A stretch of 54,776 bases of DNA from Paludibacteraceae bacterium (lineage in GTDB: Bacteria; Bacteroidota; Bacteroidia; Bacteroidales; Paludibacteraceae). The stretch spans positions 1 to 54,776 of the forward strand of contig JAKSOA010000014.1 of the NCBI GenBank assembly GCA_024405875.1. The letters are read 5' to 3'. The position numbers and the translations under genes are program-made. The notes beneath the pieces were generated by a model, which was given only the letters and a program-made list of their open reading frames with translations, was not told the origin of the DNA and did not search any database. Every line of letters begins with the position of its first letter. The first letter of the stretch is position 1. Below are positions 4,749 to 54,513 of the stretch, piece after piece.

Positions 4749-7580
4749 ATGGAAACAAAAAATTTATTAAACAAAAAAATTAACCAATGGTTATTGCTGG
4801 TGGCAATGCTATTTGGGTTTAGTGGTGCGTTATCTGCAGATAAGTATGTCTATTTTGACTCAAACAAAGGAGAGTGGGAAAAAGATGGTTCAGCTTCTGC
4901 TTGCCACTATTGGGGTGGTACAGGTTCCACATGGCCTGGAAATCTAATGACAAAAGTATCTGGAGAAAGTCACATTTGGTATTATAAAGTTCCCAGTGGG
5001 AATGGCAACTGTATGTTTGTACGTGTGTCCAGTGATGGCAAATCTGATTGGGGAGCAAAAACTACGGATCAAACGACTCCAAGTGCTACTGGTAAAAATT
5101 TATGCACAATGAGTTCTTTTAATTGGGGAGATACAAAGTGTACTGCATCTTTCAGTGGCTATTATGCATTAACCCCAACAGCGGTAACCTTAACGGTTAC
5201 TGATGGAAAACTTAGTGGTTCTGGTACCTCATCTGACCCATATATGGTTGAAGCAGGAGGTAAATTTACACTTTCGGCTTCAAACCTAACATTCTCTCCT
5301 GCTGACCCCGATATGAAGGGCTATTATTACTTTGGAACGAGTTCAACAGGTATACCAAATTCAGATACTTCTTCTGCAGAAATGACCGCCTCTTCTACAG
5401 TTGGAAATAAAACACAATATTATGTAATAGTAAAAGGCAAGTATAATACTACGACATCAAGTAGCACAAAAAGTGCATCGGTTTACGTACAAACAAAATC
5501 TTCTTGCGTTCCACCAACTGCATACAATGTTTCTGGACCATCATCGGTTTGTGCTGGTTCAAATGCGGAGATAACATTATCAGGTTCTCAGACAGGCTAT
5601 ACATACGAGTTGTATAAAGATGGAGCAACAACATCTACCACACAGGCAGGAACAGGCTCTTCATTAACTTTTAGTGCGAAGGTATCTGGCTCAAGTGCCG
5701 CAGCATTTACTATAAAAGGTTATGTGACAGGAACACCAACTTGTACTGCTGATATGAATGGTACAGCAACCGTTACTCCAATTGCTCTTCCATCAGCACC
5801 AACAGGCAGTAATATTAATGTTTGTTCAGGTTCTGATGCGGTATTTACAGCGTCTCAAACAAATAATCGTTGTATAGACTGGTACACAGCAAGTACCGGC
5901 GGTACAAAGTTAGCGACATGTCAAACCTCTTATACTAAGACAAATCTTACTTCAGATTATACTGTTTATGTTGAAGCAAGAAATGCTGATAACGGCTGTG
6001 TATCACAGAGTAGAACAGCAATAAAGGCAACCGCTGTAGCAAAGCCTACAATAGCAAGTACAGCTCCTGCATCAGGGTGTATTGGCACTAATGTAAATAT
6101 AGGTGCTACTGCAAGTTCGGGTGCAACTGTAAGATGGTATGAAGCCGCAACAGGTGGCACAGCACTTTACACGGGAACACCATATACAGTATCAAGTATC
6201 AGTGCCACAAAAAAATATTATGCGGAAGCATATAACAGCACATTAGACTGTGCTTCAACAAGCAGGACTGATGTGACCGCAACCGCCAAGGCTTTGAATA
6301 ATGTAAGCAACATAACATTCTACCCTTCATCTGTTAAGAAGGGTGAACCAACACAGGCTACCGCTACTGTAACAACAGTTGGTGGTACAGGTGAATGGAT
6401 TACAACCACATCAAGTCTGATTAGTTTCTCAAGCACATCTGCTAATCCTACCACAATCAGCACAAATGGCATAGGTACCGCTAAGGTAACATATACATTA
6501 ACAGGCGGATGTTCTGGCACTGGTGCAGTTAATTCAAAGACTGTTGATTTGGTTATCAACTCTGACTGCGATGCTCCTGATGCTGGTACTATCAGTGGTG
6601 ACAATGCAATCTGTGCCGGAGGTAGCGTTTCACTTTCTGTAACAGGTTACACATCTACAAACACCAAATTGCAGTGGAACAAGAACGGCAGCCCTGTGGC
6701 AGGAAAGACAAGCAACACTTATACAGAGAGTAATGTTACTGAAACTGCCACATACACTGTGACAGTAACAAGAACCGATGTTGACAACTGTTCCGCCACT
6801 ACACCAACTGGTTATGAAGTCACCGTCACCCAAATCCCAACCATCACAACACACACCGATAACTCTCGTTGCGGCACAGGTACTGTAACATTGAGTGCAA
6901 CTGCAAGTGCTGGTGATGTTAAATGGTATGCAGCCTCTACTAGTGGCAGTTCACTTGGAACAGGTGCATCTTATACAACACCAAGTATAAGTGCCACAAC
7001 CAAATACTATGTTGATGCCACACAGAATGGCTGTACCACAGCATCAAGAACTGCTGTTACCGCAACTGTAAATACGGTGCCTTCAATTGGCAGTATTTCC
7101 GCTCCTGCTAATGCTTGTGGAGCAGGTGATATAAAATTTACAGCAAATAATGTAACAACTGATGCTACGGTTACTTGGTATGAGAACTCTTCTCAACTTG
7201 GCACAGGTGCAAGTTACACATTCAGCAATGTTCCTGCAGGTACGTCTCACTCTGTTACCGCTAAGGCTACTCTGAATGGTTGCACATCATCAGAGAAGAA
7301 TGCTAGTGCTAGTCGTTTGGCAGTTCCTACCCTTACCATCAACGCTCCTACAGCATACGCTTGGGAAGATGCTACATTCACATACACATCAGACGGAAGC
7401 GTAACAGGTAGTGTAACACAAAAAACAGGTACAGGTGGTATTATCAGTGGTGATACATTCAAGGGTCATGTGGGTGATGTATTCACAGGCTCTTACACCG
7501 CAACCAACACAACAACAGGCTGTACTACCAGCGATTCAGCAGATGTTACAGTTACCAGGGCAACTGAGTCCTGCGACTAA
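4749..7580 (+). CDS. Secreted multi-Ig-like surface protein with N-terminal CBM26-like domain
   Basis: I start at ATG 4749 (943 aa). It gives a clean signal peptide (NQWLLLVAMLFGFSGALSA), while the frame upstream is Lys/Gln/Asn-rich and has only a GTG. The mature N-terminus (YVYFDSNKGEW ... HYWGG ... TWPG ... MTKV ... IWYYKVP) resembles starch-binding CBM26-type modules. The rest is a string of Ig-like repeats of the CHU_C-associated type. Examples are TVRWYEAATGGTALYTG and VKWYAASTSGSSLGTG, each ending in a (T)KYY(A/V) strand. The protein stops after the last Ig domain with ESCD, without a recognisable T9SS domain; two proteins at 14-19 kb also end in Cys-Asp. Likely a cell-surface glycan-binding or adhesive protein. 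It is followed by a strong terminator. Confidence 0.8.
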   Translation: METKNLLNKKINQWLLLVAMLFGFSGALSADKYVYFDSNKGEWEKDGSASACHYWGGTGSTWPGNLMTKVSGESHIWYYKVPSGNGNCMFVRVSSDGKSDWGAKTTDQTTPSATGKNLCTMSSFNWGDTKCTASFSGYYALTPTAVTLTVTDGKLSGSGTSSDPYMVEAGGKFTLSASNLTFSPADPDMKGYYYFGTSSTGIPNSDTSSAEMTASSTVGNKTQYYVIVKGKYNTTTSSSTKSASVYVQTKSSCVPPTAYNVSGPSSVCAGSNAEITLSGSQTGYTYELYKDGATTSTTQAGTGSSLTFSAKVSGSSAAAFTIKGYVTGTPTCTADMNGTATVTPIALPSAPTGSNINVCSGSDAVFTASQTNNRCIDWYTASTGGTKLATCQTSYTKTNLTSDYTVYVEARNADNGCVSQSRTAIKATAVAKPTIASTAPASGCIGTNVNIGATASSGATVRWYEAATGGTALYTGTPYTVSSISATKKYYAEAYNSTLDCASTSRTDVTATAKALNNVSNITFYPSSVKKGEPTQATATVTTVGGTGEWITTTSSLISFSSTSANPTTISTNGIGTAKVTYTLTGGCSGTGAVNSKTVDLVINSDCDAPDAGTISGDNAICAGGSVSLSVTGYTSTNTKLQWNKNGSPVAGKTSNTYTESNVTETATYTVTVTRTDVDNCSATTPTGYEVTVTQIPTITTHTDNSRCGTGTVTLSATASAGDVKWYAASTSGSSLGTGASYTTPSISATTKYYVDATQNGCTTASRTAVTATVNTVPSIGSISAPANACGAGDIKFTANNVTTDATVTWYENSSQLGTGASYTFSNVPAGTSHSVTAKATLNGCTSSEKNASASRLAVPTLTINAPTAYAWEDATFTYTSDGSVTGSVTQKTGTGGIISGDTFKGHVGDVFTGSYTATNTTTGCTTSDSADVTVTRATESCD

Positions 7581-12954: not shown

Positions 12955-13896
12955 ATGGATAATTTTCGTTACGTGAACCCGTTGACAGACTTCGGGTTCA
13001 AAAGAAACTTCGGTGATGCCGAGGTTATGAAAGCGTTCCTTACAGATTTGTTGGAACTGAGTTCTGAAATCAAGGAAATCACACACCTTGACAAAGAGCG
13101 TCTTTCAGAGACGCAGATGGGCAGGGGCGTGGTGTTTGACCTGCTATGTGAGACCGTTGACGGCTCCCGTTTCATTGTGGAGATGCAGAAGCGCAAGCAG
13201 AAGCATTTTGCGGAGCGGATGGTGTTCTACCTCTCAAGAGAGGTGGCGTCACAGACCAAGAGAGAAGAGTGGGATTACAACATCCTTCCGGTCTATGGAA
13301 TCTTCTTCCTTGACTTCCACCTGCCTGATTTCAAACCCAGCACCCTCAGGACCATAGAGTTCATAGTGAGGGAGACAGGAGAGGTCCTGACCGACAAGGT
13401 CAAGGCGTTCACTCTGGAACTGCCGTCATACGATGGCAAACCCGACGATGAATGTAAGACGCAGATGGATTACTGGCTTTATAATTTGGCTAATATGGAG
13501 ACAATGCAAACCGATTTGAAATTCAAGGACAAGCAGCCTGCGTTTGAGAAAATGCAGAAGTTGTCAGAACTGTCCGCAATGACCAAGGCGGAGAGCGACC
13601 AGTACTTCTGGGAGCAGGATTATTACATTACCATAAAGAACGCCGAAGATTATGAGCGTGAGGATAGAGAGAAGAAAAGAGCCGAAATCTTAGCGGAAGG
13701 ACGTGCGGAAGGACGTGCGGAAGGACGTGCGGAAGGACGTGCGGAAGGACGTGCAGAAGGACGTGCAGAAGGTCTTGAGCAAGGAATTGAGCAAGAAAAA
13801 CTAAGCGTAGCAAGAAACATGAAGCAAGAAGGCCTTGAAGTCTTGCTTATTTCTAAAGTCACAGGTCTCAGCGCAGAGGAAATCAGCAAACTCTGA
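12955..13896 (+). CDS. Rpn-family PD-(D/E)XK nuclease / putative transposase with AEGR repeat tail
   Basis: 313 aa. The N-terminus NPLTDFGFKRNFGD is the hallmark of the Rpn/PDDEXK_2 family. The nuclease core is visible as VVFDLLCETVDGSRFIVEMQ, i.e. D-(x)n-E-x-Q, with active-site Asp and Glu and the family's typical Gln. Family members are recombination-promoting DNA nucleases, often many per genome. Residues ~246-275 are a tandem AEGR repeat, encoded by 12-bp units, leading to a short C-terminal helical domain (SVARNMKQEGLEVLLISKVTGL) typical of the family. It has its own promoter and terminator, so it is monocistronic. It probably acts on DNA recombination or serves as a selfish element; no transposon ends were found. 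Confidence 0.85.
   Translation: MDNFRYVNPLTDFGFKRNFGDAEVMKAFLTDLLELSSEIKEITHLDKERLSETQMGRGVVFDLLCETVDGSRFIVEMQKRKQKHFAERMVFYLSREVASQTKREEWDYNILPVYGIFFLDFHLPDFKPSTLRTIEFIVRETGEVLTDKVKAFTLELPSYDGKPDDECKTQMDYWLYNLANMETMQTDLKFKDKQPAFEKMQKLSELSAMTKAESDQYFWEQDYYITIKNAEDYEREDREKKRAEILAEGRAEGRAEGRAEGRAEGRAEGRAEGLEQGIEQEKLSVARNMKQEGLEVLLISKVTGLSAEEISKL
13693..13776 (+). repeat. Seven 12-bp units inside the Rpn gene
   Basis: Five perfect GCGGAAGGACGT units (13693-13752) plus two diverged units. They encode Ala-Glu-Gly-Arg repeats. The unit is a multiple of three, so copy-number change alters linker length without breaking the frame. Confidence 0.9.
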
Positions 13897-30196: not shown

Positions 30197-30287
30197 AATA
30201 TAAAATAATTAGTAATTAGTAATTAAAGCAACTGGTAATTAATGTGGGGAAAACGTAATTGTAAAGGCTACCCCAAAGTATGCAATG

Positions 30288-30453: not shown

Positions 30454-30489
30454 TAATTGCTAATTACTAATTACTAATTGCTAATTGAA
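30454..30489. repeat. TAATTGC/TAATTAC array before the RSH gene
   Basis: Runs of 7-bp units (TAATTGC, TAATTAC) end 3 bp before ATG 30493, preceded at ~30424 by two GGTGATTC-type units. Related arrays occur at 30206-30245, 33017-33048, 34331-34360 and 50295-50326. Confidence 0.7.
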
Positions 30490-33001: not shown

Positions 33002-33048
33002 TGAGGCGAAGCCTCATATATTAATTATTAATTATTAATTGCTAATTG
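33002..33048. repeat. Palindrome plus ATTAATT array overlapping the metK 3' end
   Basis: TGAGGCGAAGCCTCA (33002-33016, hairpin with GAA-type loop) followed by TATATTAATTATTAATT-type units. The first 39 bp are identical to 50280-50318. The metK stop and its last residues (LAINN) are encoded by the array. Confidence 0.85.
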
Positions 33049-34294: not shown

Positions 34295-34330
34295 CAAAAT
34301 TAAAGGAGAAATTTTGGAGTAGCGAGAGAT

Positions 34331-34360
34331 ATTAATTATTAATTATTAATTATTAATTGT
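34331..34360. repeat. ATTAATT array
   Basis: Four ATTAATT(A/T) units between the divergent metK and SusR-like promoters. No palindrome adjoins this copy. Confidence 0.7.
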
Positions 34361-50279: not shown

Positions 50280-50326
50280 TGAGGCGAAGCCTCATATATT
50301 AATTATTAATTATTAATTATTAATTA
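50280..50326. repeat. Palindrome plus ATTAATT array overlapping the DUF3108 3' end
   Basis: TGAGGCGAAGCCTCA (50280-50294) and about four ATTAATT units. The DUF3108 gene's last codons (LLINN) and stop lie in the array, just as metK's do at 33028. Upstream at ~50195-50240 are further fragments of the family (ATTCGGTGATTACTCGC, GGCTTCGCCTCA). Confidence 0.85.
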
Positions 50327-51122
50327 AAAGGTCCATCTTGACATACCCTATTGTGAGTTTGGATTCTGCGTGCACTATGCGATGTGCTGGTGCTGTCTCT
50401 ATCCAAATGTAAACGGGATTCTTCTTTGAGAATAACGTACCCTCAACGGCTGTTGAGAATTGGAATTTCATAGCCTCCACTTCAGCCCCTCGTCTCAGTT
50501 TGATTTTTTCTGTTTTAATATATGTTATGCAGGCTGGCAGGTTGTCACCTCCAAACATATAGTTGTCAAACCATATCTTATCGCCCGTTTTAAGCGACTC
50601 TATGTCAAAGCATCTGATGCGGTAGAGTAGTGTGAGTACGTCCATAGGGCAACACTCCTTATAGGTCTGCACGTGCGTAAGCGTCTCATTGCTACTCACT
50701 ACCTCTTTGCGAGCGTCAACGCTCATTCCATCGGGGAGAGGAAAGAAGTTATAATAGTAGTAGCACTCCCATTTGCGCTCCACATCGTGCTCAAAGTAGT
50801 AGAGAGGCTCCATTGTGCGGGCGTCAACCTCAACAGAGAATGTGTCCTTTAACTGATAGAATGTCTTTGCCGTCTTTATAGTCTGGGCAGTGGCGAAAAT
50901 CTTGTAACTATTAATACCACGATGGCTGCTGTTGGTTACTGTTGTCTCTAGGTCGGCTCCGTCAATGTACAGAGCCCCCCATTGGAAGAACGCCTCATAT
51001 TTAAGACTCTCTCCAGCCGTGATGGCGGACGGTGACATAGCGCAAGCCGACGTTATATCTTTTGCATTAGCGCTTGAACTTATACAAAGAATTGCTGTTA
51101 TGTATATTATAACTCTTTTCAT
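50313..51122 (-). CDS. DUF3108-family secreted protein
   Basis: 269 aa, signal peptide MKRVIIYITAILCISSSANA. A beta-rich protein with AITAGESLKYEAFFQWGALY, YYFEHDVERKW and TYIKTEKIKLRRGAEVEAMKF, matching the DUF3108 pattern in Bacteroidota; periplasmic, function unknown. The ATG overlaps the stop of the Ig-like lipoprotein gene, and that gene overlaps glyS, so glyS, lipoprotein and DUF3108 form a tight operon. The C-terminal LLINN comes from a dispersed repeat. Confidence 0.85.
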   Translation of the reverse strand: MKRVIIYITAILCISSSANAKDITSACAMSPSAITAGESLKYEAFFQWGALYIDGADLETTVTNSSHRGINSYKIFATAQTIKTAKTFYQLKDTFSVEVDARTMEPLYYFEHDVERKWECYYYYNFFPLPDGMSVDARKEVVSSNETLTHVQTYKECCPMDVLTLLYRIRCFDIESLKTGDKIWFDNYMFGGDNLPACITYIKTEKIKLRRGAEVEAMKFQFSTAVEGTLFSKKNPVYIWIETAPAHRIVHAESKLTIGYVKMDLLINN

Positions 51123-52966
51123 CGACTGGTGTTTTTTCTTTTCAACTCTGTGGGGCGTTGGTTAAGTATGTGGAATGATTTGTAATCCCACTCCTGCTCC
51201 ACGTCCCAGTTTGCCGGTAGTGTCAGTTTCTGGTTCATATAGAAGACCTCTTCTGGTTGCAGGTGCTCACGCACATTGCCTGTATCCCACTCTCCGTTAT
51301 GGTTGGAGTCTATTATCATTCTAACATAGTAGTCGCCCGGTGTTATATCTTGGAAGGTCACCTCCCCATCTTCAAGTACGGAACGGTATTTCACCTCCTC
51401 TTTTTCATTCATAAGTTCTAAGATGGCATCTTCAGGATTCTCTTTGAATTTTATGTATAGATTTGAGTACTCTTCAAGTCTCTTGAGGGTGAAGGTCTTG
51501 TAAAACTTGTCATTATGTTTGCCGTAGATGCTTACAATGGCGGCTGAGTCAATGTCAAGTCTGTAGGTCTCCCCAAACTGCTTCTCATATATTATGCGCA
51601 ACTCTTTATTGCATGCGGAGTCTCTGGTCTCAAATGTTACGGGTATGGGATTAAACAGGGTGTCAACCTTTATCTTCATTGAAATGCTGTCAAAAAGTAT
51701 GCTCTTTATGGGTTCTGCGAAATTAATGGTTATGGTATCCGGAGCCTCCATCTTATCCTGAATGTTATGTGTCAGATTAATGAACTCAATCTTTTTCTTC
51801 TTGGGCTCCTCTTCTCCTTTCTTTTTCTTCTTGGAGGTGTTTGCCTGTATTCTCTTGGTTGTGACTCTTAGGTTTAGTGTGTCGGTCTGTTCCACAAGTT
51901 GTTCAAGTGAGTCTGTAAGGAGATATGTCATCTCAAGACGCAGGGTGTCACTCTTAAGCAGGGTGGTGTCTGTAACCCAATAGATAAGTGAGTCACGGCG
52001 GTTTTGGGAGGGAGTCTCCATTATGAATGGTGATTCGGTGATTCGGTGATTCGGTGATTCGGTGATGGTGTCACTATTAAGGACTCTGAGTTTGGGAAGC
52101 ATAGATGGTTCACTGCCAAAGACAAGTATGAACATCTCACGGTTAGGGTGCATAGCCTTTTTGAAGTACTGATTGGTCTTCTTCTCTGTGAAGAGACGCA
52201 GTATATGGTGATTCGGTGATTCGGTGATTCGGTGATTCGTGGAATCGGTGATTTCTCCTTTCTCAGGGTGGATTTTCTCCCCGTGGAATGCTACGGTGCC
52301 TCCGGCTTTCTGGCTGTAGTACCAATCTCCGCCCGCGTCATTGAGGGCGAAGAGTGTGTACTCTTTGTCTGGTATGTTCTGTATGCGGAAATAGCCTGTG
52401 GTGTCTGTCTTTGCCACACGGTAGAACGGAGTGGTGGTGAAGGTTGTGTCCACGGCATCGGGGTAGATTCCTGCTATTATATCAACTGCGGGTGCAAGTG
52501 TGTGCGCATCAATTATATATCCCTCAATGTAGAGGGTGTCAATCTCAGAACCGGTGGAGAATACGTAGGTGTAGTTCCTAATGGGATTGCCCTCATTGTT
52601 GTCTGTAATGGCGTCTCCGTAGTAGATGGTGTATGTTGTGTTCTCCTTTAGGGTGTCATCAAATGTTGTTATTACACTCTTGTTCTGTGCCTTGACTATC
52701 GGTTTGTTTTTTGACGGTGGTGAGATTATGACATTTTTGTAGGCGTCTTTTATTGCCATATTCTCATTGAACTCCATCTTTATGCCTTTTTTCAACAGAC
52801 GGTCCACATTTGTGGCTCGCTCTTGCGGGGCGCACTCAAGCATTACAGGCGGAACCTCATCTTTTGGTCCTCCCTGCGGTCCTGAACCACGATTGGCGCA
52901 AGAGACGACGAGCACCGATATTGCTATCAGTGCCGTCAGTCTCTGGTATGTGGACAATGCAATCAC
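51119..52966 (-). CDS. Ig-like (SbsA-type) lipoprotein with two 8-bp repeat arrays in frame
   Basis: 615 aa; GTG start overlapping the glyS stop (GTGA). Lipobox VLVVSC. The N-terminal domain (PPVMLECAPQERATNVDRL ... MEFNENM ... NTTYTIYYGDAITDNNEGN) is an SbsA-like Ig domain. Then come a carboxypeptidase-regulatory-like insert (GYIIDAHTLAPAVDIIAGIY ... GYFRIQNIPDKEY) and two low-complexity islands (ITDSTNHRITESPNHH; TITESPNHRITESP). A Lys-rich linker (KKKKKGEEEPKKKKIEF) precedes two further Ig domains, and the C-terminus ends in DSNHNGEWDTGNVREHLQPE. The two islands are encoded by GGTGATTC repeats, whose 8-bp unit would shift the frame on slippage. Surface or periplasmic lipoprotein of unknown partner. 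Confidence 0.85.
   Translation of the reverse strand: MIALSTYQRLTALIAISVLVVSCANRGSGPQGGPKDEVPPVMLECAPQERATNVDRLLKKGIKMEFNENMAIKDAYKNVIISPPSKNKPIVKAQNKSVITTFDDTLKENTTYTIYYGDAITDNNEGNPIRNYTYVFSTGSEIDTLYIEGYIIDAHTLAPAVDIIAGIYPDAVDTTFTTTPFYRVAKTDTTGYFRIQNIPDKEYTLFALNDAGGDWYYSQKAGGTVAFHGEKIHPEKGEITDSTNHRITESPNHHILRLFTEKKTNQYFKKAMHPNREMFILVFGSEPSMLPKLRVLNSDTITESPNHRITESPFIMETPSQNRRDSLIYWVTDTTLLKSDTLRLEMTYLLTDSLEQLVEQTDTLNLRVTTKRIQANTSKKKKKGEEEPKKKKIEFINLTHNIQDKMEAPDTITINFAEPIKSILFDSISMKIKVDTLFNPIPVTFETRDSACNKELRIIYEKQFGETYRLDIDSAAIVSIYGKHNDKFYKTFTLKRLEEYSNLYIKFKENPEDAILELMNEKEEVKYRSVLEDGEVTFQDITPGDYYVRMIIDSNHNGEWDTGNVREHLQPEEVFYMNQKLTLPANWDVEQEWDYKSFHILNQRPTELKRKNTSR
52029..52066. repeat. 8-bp repeat array 1 inside the lipoprotein gene
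   Basis: Four perfect GGTGATTC units plus GGTGAT (plus-strand sense). Three units encode one turn of the peptide SPNHRITE. Confidence 0.92.
52207..52254. repeat. 8-bp repeat array 2 inside the lipoprotein gene
   Basis: Four perfect GGTGATTC units followed by two degenerate ones (GTGGAATC, GGTGATTT). 140 bp from array 1 and in the same orientation, so recombination between arrays is also possible. Confidence 0.9.
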
Positions 52967-54513
52967 TCCGCGAGTAATTTCTTATATAGATTACGCATAT
53001 TTACCTGTGCGTCAATGAGTGTGTGCAACTCATCAATCTTTATGCGGTCTTGTTTCATTGTGTCACGGTAACGTACTGTAACACAGTTGTCATTCAGGGT
53101 ATCGTGGTCAACTGTTATACAGAATGGGGTGCCTATGGCGTCTTGGCGGCGGTAACGCTTGCCTATTGAATCCTTCTCATCATATACGCACTTGAAGTCA
53201 AACTTTAGAAGGTTCATAATCTCACGTGCCTTCTCAGGCAGTCCGTCTTTCTTTACAAGTGGGAGAATGGCAGCCTTTACAGGAGCGAGTACCGGTGGCA
53301 GGTTCAGAACCACACGGCTATCTCCGCCCTCAAGAGCCTCTTCTTTGTAGGCGGCGCACATAATTGAGAGGAACATACGGTCAACGCCTATTGAGGTCTC
53401 AATCACATACGGGGTGTATGACTCATTTAGTTCAGGGTCAAAGTACTCTATCTTCTTGCCACAGTATTTTGCGTGCTGGCTGAGGTCAAAGTTTGTGCGT
53501 GAGTGTATGCCTTCAACCTCTTTGAAACCGAATGGCATCTCAAATTCAATGTCTGTGGCTGCGTTGGCGTAGTGGGCAAGTTTATCGTGGTCATGGAAAC
53601 GGTACTTCTCATCACCAAGCCCCAATGCCTTGTGCCATTTAAGGCGGAACTGCTTCCAATGTGCGAACCAATCCATCTCTGTGCCTGGCTTAATGAAGAA
53701 CTGCATCTCCATCTGCTCAAACTCACGCATACGGAATATGAACTGGCGCGCCACTATCTCATTACGGAAAGCCTTACCTATCTGGGCTATACCGAACGGT
53801 ATGCGCATACGGCCTGTCTTCTGAACATTCAGGTAGTTTACAAAGATTCCTTGAGCCGTCTCAGGGCGTAGGTATATCTTGCTTGTTCCCTCTGCTGTTG
53901 AGCCTATCTCAGTGGTGAACATAAGGTTGAACTGACGTACATCGGTCCAATTCTTGGTGCCGCTTATAGGGCATACTATCTCATAATCAAGTATTATCTG
54001 CTTCAGTTCATTGAGGTCTGAGGCGTTCATTGCGGCTTTGAAGCGGGCGTGTATCTCCTCACGCTTTGCAAGATGCTCCTGAACACGCGGGTTGGTTGAC
54101 TTGAAGAGTTCCGCGTCAAAACTGTCACCGAACTTCTTTGCCGCCTTCTCAACCTCTTTCTCTATCTTCTCATCATATTTTGCTATGAGGTCCTCAATAA
54201 GCACATCGGCACGGTAGCGTTTCTTGCTGTCACGGTTGTCAATAAGCGGGTCATTGAAGGCGTCCACGTGTCCCGATGCCTTCCAGGTGGTAGGGTGCAT
54301 AAATATTGCGGCGTCAATACCCACGATGTTCTCGTGCAGCAGCACCATACTGTCCCACCAATATTTCTTGATGTTATTTTTTAGTTCAACACCCATCTGA
54401 CCGTAGTCATAAACTGCGGCAAGACCATCATATATGTCACTTGAGGGGAATACAAATCCGTACTCCTTGCAGTGTGACACCATTTTTTTAAATACCTCGT
54501 CTTGTGAAGCCAT
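52963..54513 (-). CDS. glyS: Glycyl-tRNA synthetase, single-chain class II
   Basis: 516 aa. Charges tRNA-Gly. Single-chain (alpha2-type) enzyme typical of Bacteroidota: DGLAAVYDYGQMGVELKNNIK, motif 2 region IGKAFRNEI, LRPETAQGIFVNYLNV, RFRLKWHKALG-like helix, EVEGIHSRTNFDLSQH, and motif 3 VIETSIGVDRMFLSIM, followed by the anticodon-binding domain. All key blocks present. First gene of an operon with the lipoprotein and DUF3108 genes. Confidence 0.96.
   Translation of the reverse strand: MASQDEVFKKMVSHCKEYGFVFPSSDIYDGLAAVYDYGQMGVELKNNIKKYWWDSMVLLHENIVGIDAAIFMHPTTWKASGHVDAFNDPLIDNRDSKKRYRADVLIEDLIAKYDEKIEKEVEKAAKKFGDSFDAELFKSTNPRVQEHLAKREEIHARFKAAMNASDLNELKQIILDYEIVCPISGTKNWTDVRQFNLMFTTEIGSTAEGTSKIYLRPETAQGIFVNYLNVQKTGRMRIPFGIAQIGKAFRNEIVARQFIFRMREFEQMEMQFFIKPGTEMDWFAHWKQFRLKWHKALGLGDEKYRFHDHDKLAHYANAATDIEFEMPFGFKEVEGIHSRTNFDLSQHAKYCGKKIEYFDPELNESYTPYVIETSIGVDRMFLSIMCAAYKEEALEGGDSRVVLNLPPVLAPVKAAILPLVKKDGLPEKAREIMNLLKFDFKCVYDEKDSIGKRYRRQDAIGTPFCITVDHDTLNDNCVTVRYRDTMKQDRIKIDELHTLIDAQVNMRNLYKKLLAE

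Follow-up and report, generated by a model that had tools for sequence, protein, structure and literature searches.

The window, i.e., the whole stretch of 54,776 nucleotides analysed here, belongs to a Paludibacteraceae genome (G000; 1.85 Mb in 38 contigs, 79% complete). It carries on the minus strand a gene with a GTG start for a 615-aa lipoprotein with a Big_5 Ig-like domain (Pfam) (51119..52966). This gene overlaps by 4 nt with glyS (52963..54513, minus strand), which encodes a class II tRNA synthetase core and an anticodon-binding domain, and by 4 nt with a DUF3108 gene (50313..51122, minus strand). The operon layout with glyS described in an earlier note on this DNA is thereby borne out, and because of the overlaps with both neighbours an operon with translational coupling of the three genes is plausible from the sequence. 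Of seven sister stretches, five (G010, G002, G001, G012 and G011) have matches to glyS and DUF3108 on the two sides of the lipoprotein gene; the stretch of G003 contains glyS without a DUF3108 match, and in that of G005 glyS alone was found. A relative of the lipoprotein gene is present in 58 of the 61 genomes searched, the nearest named relatives being those of the isolates RUG243 and RUG163, and neither an NCBIfam model nor a related solved structure (E up to 0.01) was matched by the protein. The signal for surface export in Bacteroidetes was described as acidic residues following the cysteine, of the K-(D/E)2 or SDDDD type (PMC5080379); the mature N-terminus CANRGSG has no signal of these types as defined in the available part of that paper. 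The AlphaFold model of the lipoprotein (27 sequences) has a mean pLDDT of 84.7, with values below 50 at residues 24-31, 239-251, 299-310, 374-379, 381-386 and 613-615; the alignment, A1, joins the window to 26 loci of the series L024-L052, from which L028, L041 and L048 were left out.

Two octamer arrays, each with four perfect GGTGATTC units, lie in frame within this gene, as the earlier note had stated and the window sequence confirms. Array A, the first in coding direction (52207..52239, minus strand), has its four units at 52207-52238 and a perfect run ending at 52239, and a degenerate continuation reaches 52253, where Tandem Repeats Finder sets the end at 84% matches. Array B, the second in coding direction (52029..52066, minus strand), spans 4.75 units, with four head-to-tail GGTGATTC at 52029-52060 and a perfect period-8 run extending to 52066; its coding-strand unit is GAATCACC, read ITESPNHRITESP. 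The arrays start at codons 243 and 303 and overlap the predicted low-confidence loops 239-251 and 299-310, respectively. In the window GGTGATTC occurs nine times versus 1.27 expected, a count reached in none of 100 shuffles. The coding-strand unit GAATCACC is free of stop codons in all three frames and encodes the cyclic peptide ITESPNHR, while the opposite strand, GGTGATTC, gives FGDSVIR and a TGA in all three frames. As 8 and 3 have no common factor the same cyclic peptide is obtained in every frame, and as GAATCACC is stop-free in each of them, placement within genes is possible; entry of the octamer into a protein means one fixed, stop-free reading. In silico, every gain or loss of a single unit tried shortened the protein from 615 aa to 271-321 aa, in agreement with the truncation that had been predicted: array A gave 271 aa upon loss and 317 aa upon gain, array B 321 aa and 317 aa. 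The further claim that two compensating changes restore the frame was true for one of the two pairs tried, i.e., one unit added to array A, the array nearer the start codon, together with one removed from array B (615 aa), and failed for the opposite pair (271 aa). Addition of three units to array A resulted in 623 aa.

Both arrays belong, as intragenic copies, to a degenerate octamer family, YGGTKATD, that is dispersed in the genome, and have its nearly pure form CGGTGATT. Exact GGTGATTC gave 21 two-unit matches in G000, corresponding to 13 arrays, and YGGTKATD gave 115 two-unit matches (67+48) and the reversed pattern none; sites beyond those listed were read where they fell within retrieved stretches. 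Three-unit YGGTKATD matches were found in 9 of 16 genomes of the genus, with none for the reversed control in all 16. The counts are 76 in G006, 66 in G000, 55 in G013, 52 in G002 and 48 in G010, followed by 18 in G008, nine in G003, five in G004, one in G001 and zero in seven genomes. The octamer is thus abundant in some species of one genus and absent from others, which makes its origin and polarity testable within the genus. In a sample of the phylum the family was detected in 7 of 296 genomes, G000 included, compared to 2 of 296 (three matches) for the reversed control; among the matches listed, five of the other six genomes show a single unit repeated and G190 shows four short mixed arrays. 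A text search including exact GGTGATTC returned no dispersed bacterial octamers among the matches listed.

Array periods were surveyed in 454,776 bases of G000, consisting of the window and 20 stretches whose contigs were picked for holding the octamer. With a minimum length of 20 bp, the perfect arrays numbered 29 for period 7, seven for period 8, six for period 9, four for period 10 and three for period 12, and zero for periods 4, 5, 6 and 11; in three second-order Markov simulations the mean was 0 for all periods but 10 (1.0) and 11 (0.33). The arrays of the window are the two longest perfect period-8 runs of this sample (38 and 33 bp). Thirty of 37 period-7/8 arrays lie outside ORFs (ATG ORFs of at least 100 aa), although ORFs make up 91% of the bases. 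Among the period-7 arrays, 15 are exactly 20 bp long, which is the peak of their length distribution. In the window, heptamer arrays of TAATTAN / TATTAAT stand between genes at 30206-30225, 30460-30479, 33019-33040, 34330-34358 and 50297-50326; for TAATTAN, 20 bp corresponds to three TAATTA words with one base between them, possibly a multi-site binding element. Moreover, a tandem 12-bp unit, GCGGAAGGACGT, is present in 6.7 copies at 13693-13785 of the window, its length being frame-keeping.

Strand polarity at gene ends was assessed for 122 arrays of at least two octamer units (46 from G000, 26 from G013, 30 from G006 and 20 from others), using simple, uncurated ORF calls with ATG starts only. 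G013 and G006 contributed 20 sites each from among the matches listed, and the others stem from 12 of the 30 three-unit loci, one further locus and three sister contig stretches. In the 40 nt preceding a start, 54 of 58 arrays have AATCACC on the sense strand (36 of 36 outside G000), as do 17 of 18 arrays within ORFs; of the arrays found only after a stop, 20 of 23 have GGTKAT on the sense strand. Outside these ratios are 17 of the 122 arrays that were unclassed, four in the first 40 codons, two near the C-terminus and one of mixed sense only after a stop. If all arrays up to 40 nt after a stop are taken, those of the before-start or other classes included, the strands are even, 23 GGTKAT versus 24 AATCACC. 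Other 7/8-bp words of the genus follow no comparable G-strand rule, the ratio before starts being 13:11. L227 (G013 C50) and L234 (G006 C2) carry inverted octamer pairs that resemble each other, with the loop CGATATCAAAATCCGACTCA and in opposite contig orientation; G000 C36 has a shorter relative of this loop.

It can be asked whether the extragenic arrays act on mRNA, as a leader on the start side and as a stop-side or intercistronic structure, the intragenic copies being by-products. The strand polarity before starts and only after stops agrees with such a role, as does the order of the inverted octamer pairs, GGTKAT..ATMACC in 12 and the reverse order in none, and the same strand rule was reported for the heptamers of Xanthomonas and Nostoc in the available text of PMC4692102. 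However, a selected perfect intercistronic hairpin was rejected as cognate arms pair worse than permuted ones (-227 versus a mean of -285, sd 20.5), and none of eight loci matched an Rfam family. The start-side bias may merely reflect that the AATCACC strand avoids ATG, GTG and TTG, an explanation that leaves the stop-side bias unaccounted for. Taken together, we regard a role on mRNA as a serious but rather unlikely explanation. The octamer has GG at most and no quadruplex-forming G tract of three or more, a fact that speaks against canonical quadruplexes being generally responsible for the polarity. The strand rule at gene ends nevertheless resembles that of quadruplex-forming repeats, although the octamer has no GGG tract.

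Dispersed arrays of 7-8 bp are known from several bacterial phyla, their spread and function being described as unsettled in the available parts of the reports (PMC4679880, PMC4692102), and the octamer family is a further case of these known repeats. For Xanthomonas and Nostoc, the G-rich heptamers GGGAATC / GGGGA(C/T)T were described and quadruplexes were considered (PMC4692102). As far as the available text of that report goes, the octamer shares with them short dispersed tandem arrays that are mostly intergenic, some inverted pairs, adjoining genes that are mostly hypothetical or of general metabolism, and a G-rich strand that is antisense up to 50 bp before starts and sense up to 50 bp after stops. 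In contrast to these heptamers it is an octamer with GG instead of longer G tracts and hence no canonical quadruplex, it is degenerate at three positions with several copies in protein linkers, and its host is an uncultured member of the Bacteroidales (PMC4692102, available text). TAACTGA direct repeats were reported from Beggiatoaceae, some Cyanobacteria and five Bacteroidetes (MacGregor 2015, PMC4679880); in the available part of that study they likewise form dispersed arrays of the 7-bp class, many just before start codons, with one orientation stop-rich in all frames and the other found inside ORFs. The in-ORF copies of TAACTGA lie mostly at protein peripheries, and the mechanism of spread is given there as not known. 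The TAACTGA word is unrelated in sequence to the octamer, and its stop-rich orientation is the usual one before starts, where here the AATCACC strand is found (PMC4679880, same part). Cyanobacterial short tandemly repeated repetitive (STRR) sequences and long simple sequence repeats (Mrazek 2007, as presented in parts of PMC2670836, PMC4679880 and PMC4692102) are also 7-bp-class arrays beyond chance, of which some can form hairpins between genes, and differ in words and phyla. Of specialist interest and worth attention are two features of the octamer family, the strand rule without GGG tracts and the way in which sister species fill the same loops with different words.

Small dispersed repeats that are in frame in protein genes, as here, are also represented by the Rickettsia palindromic elements, which are longer and palindromic, unlike the octamer arrays. 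Of the nine in-ORF arrays of G000, eight read AATCACC in the sense direction: two are in the lipoprotein, one each in a UvrB-like protein, a LysM protein-like and a thiol-disulfide transporter-like sequence, and three in others, the names UvrB, LysM and thiol-disulfide transporter being judged from the sequence by eye. The UvrB-like linker of G003 (L154) contains a diverged octamer array that is interrupted in frame by an extra stretch of about 65 bp with CAAACTTGTTTG, and no octamer array was found in the nine other UvrB-like linkers of the genus that were compared (G011, G005 and G015 not among them). A piece similar to the stretch of about 65 bp of G003 adjoins an octamer array of G000 at C23:84817. 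The UvrB-like linker of G013 (L155) has an inverted-repeat-like insert, CCCTTTGACAAGCTCAGGG, and this linker may be used by another kind of dispersed element. An octamer pair at G000 C35:8933-8948 (L178) is part of a 635-aa ORF and follows the peptide FRYAQNDD, possibly a further dispersed repeat in translated form.

The same two loops of the lipoprotein are occupied by other words in sister species. The first loop has GGGACAA/GGGTCAA together with CTCCTGAA units in G010 and AATTGAA-like together with CTCCTTAA units in G002; the second has CTGTCCA in G010 and AACTTTC in G002. G003 shows a degenerate CTCCTTAA-like stretch. The lipoprotein gene holds 5 of the 14 in-ORF arrays of the sister stretches versus 5.1% of the ORF bases (binomial P = 0.0005, which is generous since it was around this gene that the stretches were retrieved, and since some arrays may have been inherited by both G010 and G002). 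That disordered loops tolerate inserts is the simplest account of the different 7/8-bp arrays found there in sister species.

The arrays of the window are therefore probably best regarded as members of the dispersed octamer family that were resized by slippage and are tolerated as linker padding in the lipoprotein, and not as a purpose-built switch. New sites would be seeded with arrays by some copying process, and the seeded arrays would then be resized and homogenised by replication slippage. Within genes, selection would spare only stop-free, frame-keeping arrays in tolerant linkers, and a rare one-unit slip in the lipoprotein would cause truncation as a side effect instead of as a selected switch. 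The occurrence of one degenerate word at many sites argues for copying in trans; a copying enzyme for octamer arrays was searched for and none was found. A more far-reaching idea, which we consider distinctly improbable, is that a system at genus level writes YGGTKATD arrays in trans at gene boundaries and in linkers, following a strand rule set by the position in the mRNA, and that sister species have time and again rewritten the same loops with different 7/8-bp words, making dispersed repeats a continuing source of new linker peptides.

The earlier note had interpreted the locus as a phase-variable surface lipoprotein, i.e., a contingency locus in which the lipoprotein, and through coupling also DUF3108, would be turned on and off by slippage in one or the other array. 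This is suggested by the 8-bp unit in the coding frame, by the truncation to 271-321 aa upon every one-unit change tried, by the 4-nt overlaps with glyS and DUF3108 and by the fact that the arrays are the longest perfect octamer runs of the sample, as those of a contingency locus might be. However, the octamer family is dispersed and not private to the lipoprotein gene, housekeeping-looking genes (UvrB-like, LysM-like) also carry arrays, and the arrays have 4 to 5 units only. As the gene is widely conserved (58 of 61 genomes) together with its operon, as the protein has no surface-export signal and as the repeats lie in varied genes and mostly between genes (30 of 37 outside ORFs), the lipoprotein is probably no phase switch; the proposal is right in its arithmetic and in the operon layout, but the tests available do not support the phase-variable surface lipoprotein itself, and we give it little credence. 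Phase variation was disputed on similar grounds for the repeats of Xanthomonas (PMC4692102, available text). It is possible that the lipoprotein arrays vary in unit number, with rare slippage switching. The locus calls for caution in that a frame-shifting repeat in a gene need not mean that the gene is phase-variable.

Even less credence is given to a selected diversification of the loops, in which 7/8-bp arrays are kept at the two positions because changing peptides are useful to the cell. Such selection would fit the different arrays of G000, G010 and G002 at the same two loops and the fact that, across the sister stretches, 5 of 14 in-ORF arrays fall in the lipoprotein gene. Yet the loops are predicted low-confidence linkers in which any insert would be cheap, and the UvrB-like linker has an insert of the same kind.

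Least of all is to be expected of a template-directed reverse transcriptase of the DRT10 kind as the maker of the tandem repeats. DRT10, a telomerase-like enzyme, was reported to synthesise tandem-repeat DNA from an RNA template (PMC12632851), and RT_UG17, a group named in the available part of the DRT10 paper, is the second-best PADLOC profile (80.8 bits) of the reverse transcriptase of G000, the single RVT_1 match of this 79% complete genome. However, this origin is thought unlikely since the gene adjoins an 88-nt repeat pair typical of a diversity-generating retroelement, since the 12 kb around it contain no exact octamer unit and only single degenerate matches, and since no RVT_1 match was obtained in the array-rich genomes G013 (91% complete), G010 and G008. 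Of the 16 genomes of the genus, five have RVT_1 matches, the array-rich G000, G006 and G002 being among them with one each.

The reverse transcriptase ORF lies at G000 C1:103161-106921 (L088:3161-6921), with the 88-nt repeats at L088:4585-4672 and 6481-6568. The mismatches between the two repeats coincide with T in the first one (A in the opposite strand); the region looks like a diversity-generating retroelement. On the same contig, twelve copies with 77-nt spacing are found at G000 C1:100382-101353 (L088:382-1353), where ARAGORN detected no tRNA. As they stand beside Cas2-like (110 aa) and Cas1-like (311 aa) ORFs, these copies probably constitute a CRISPR array.
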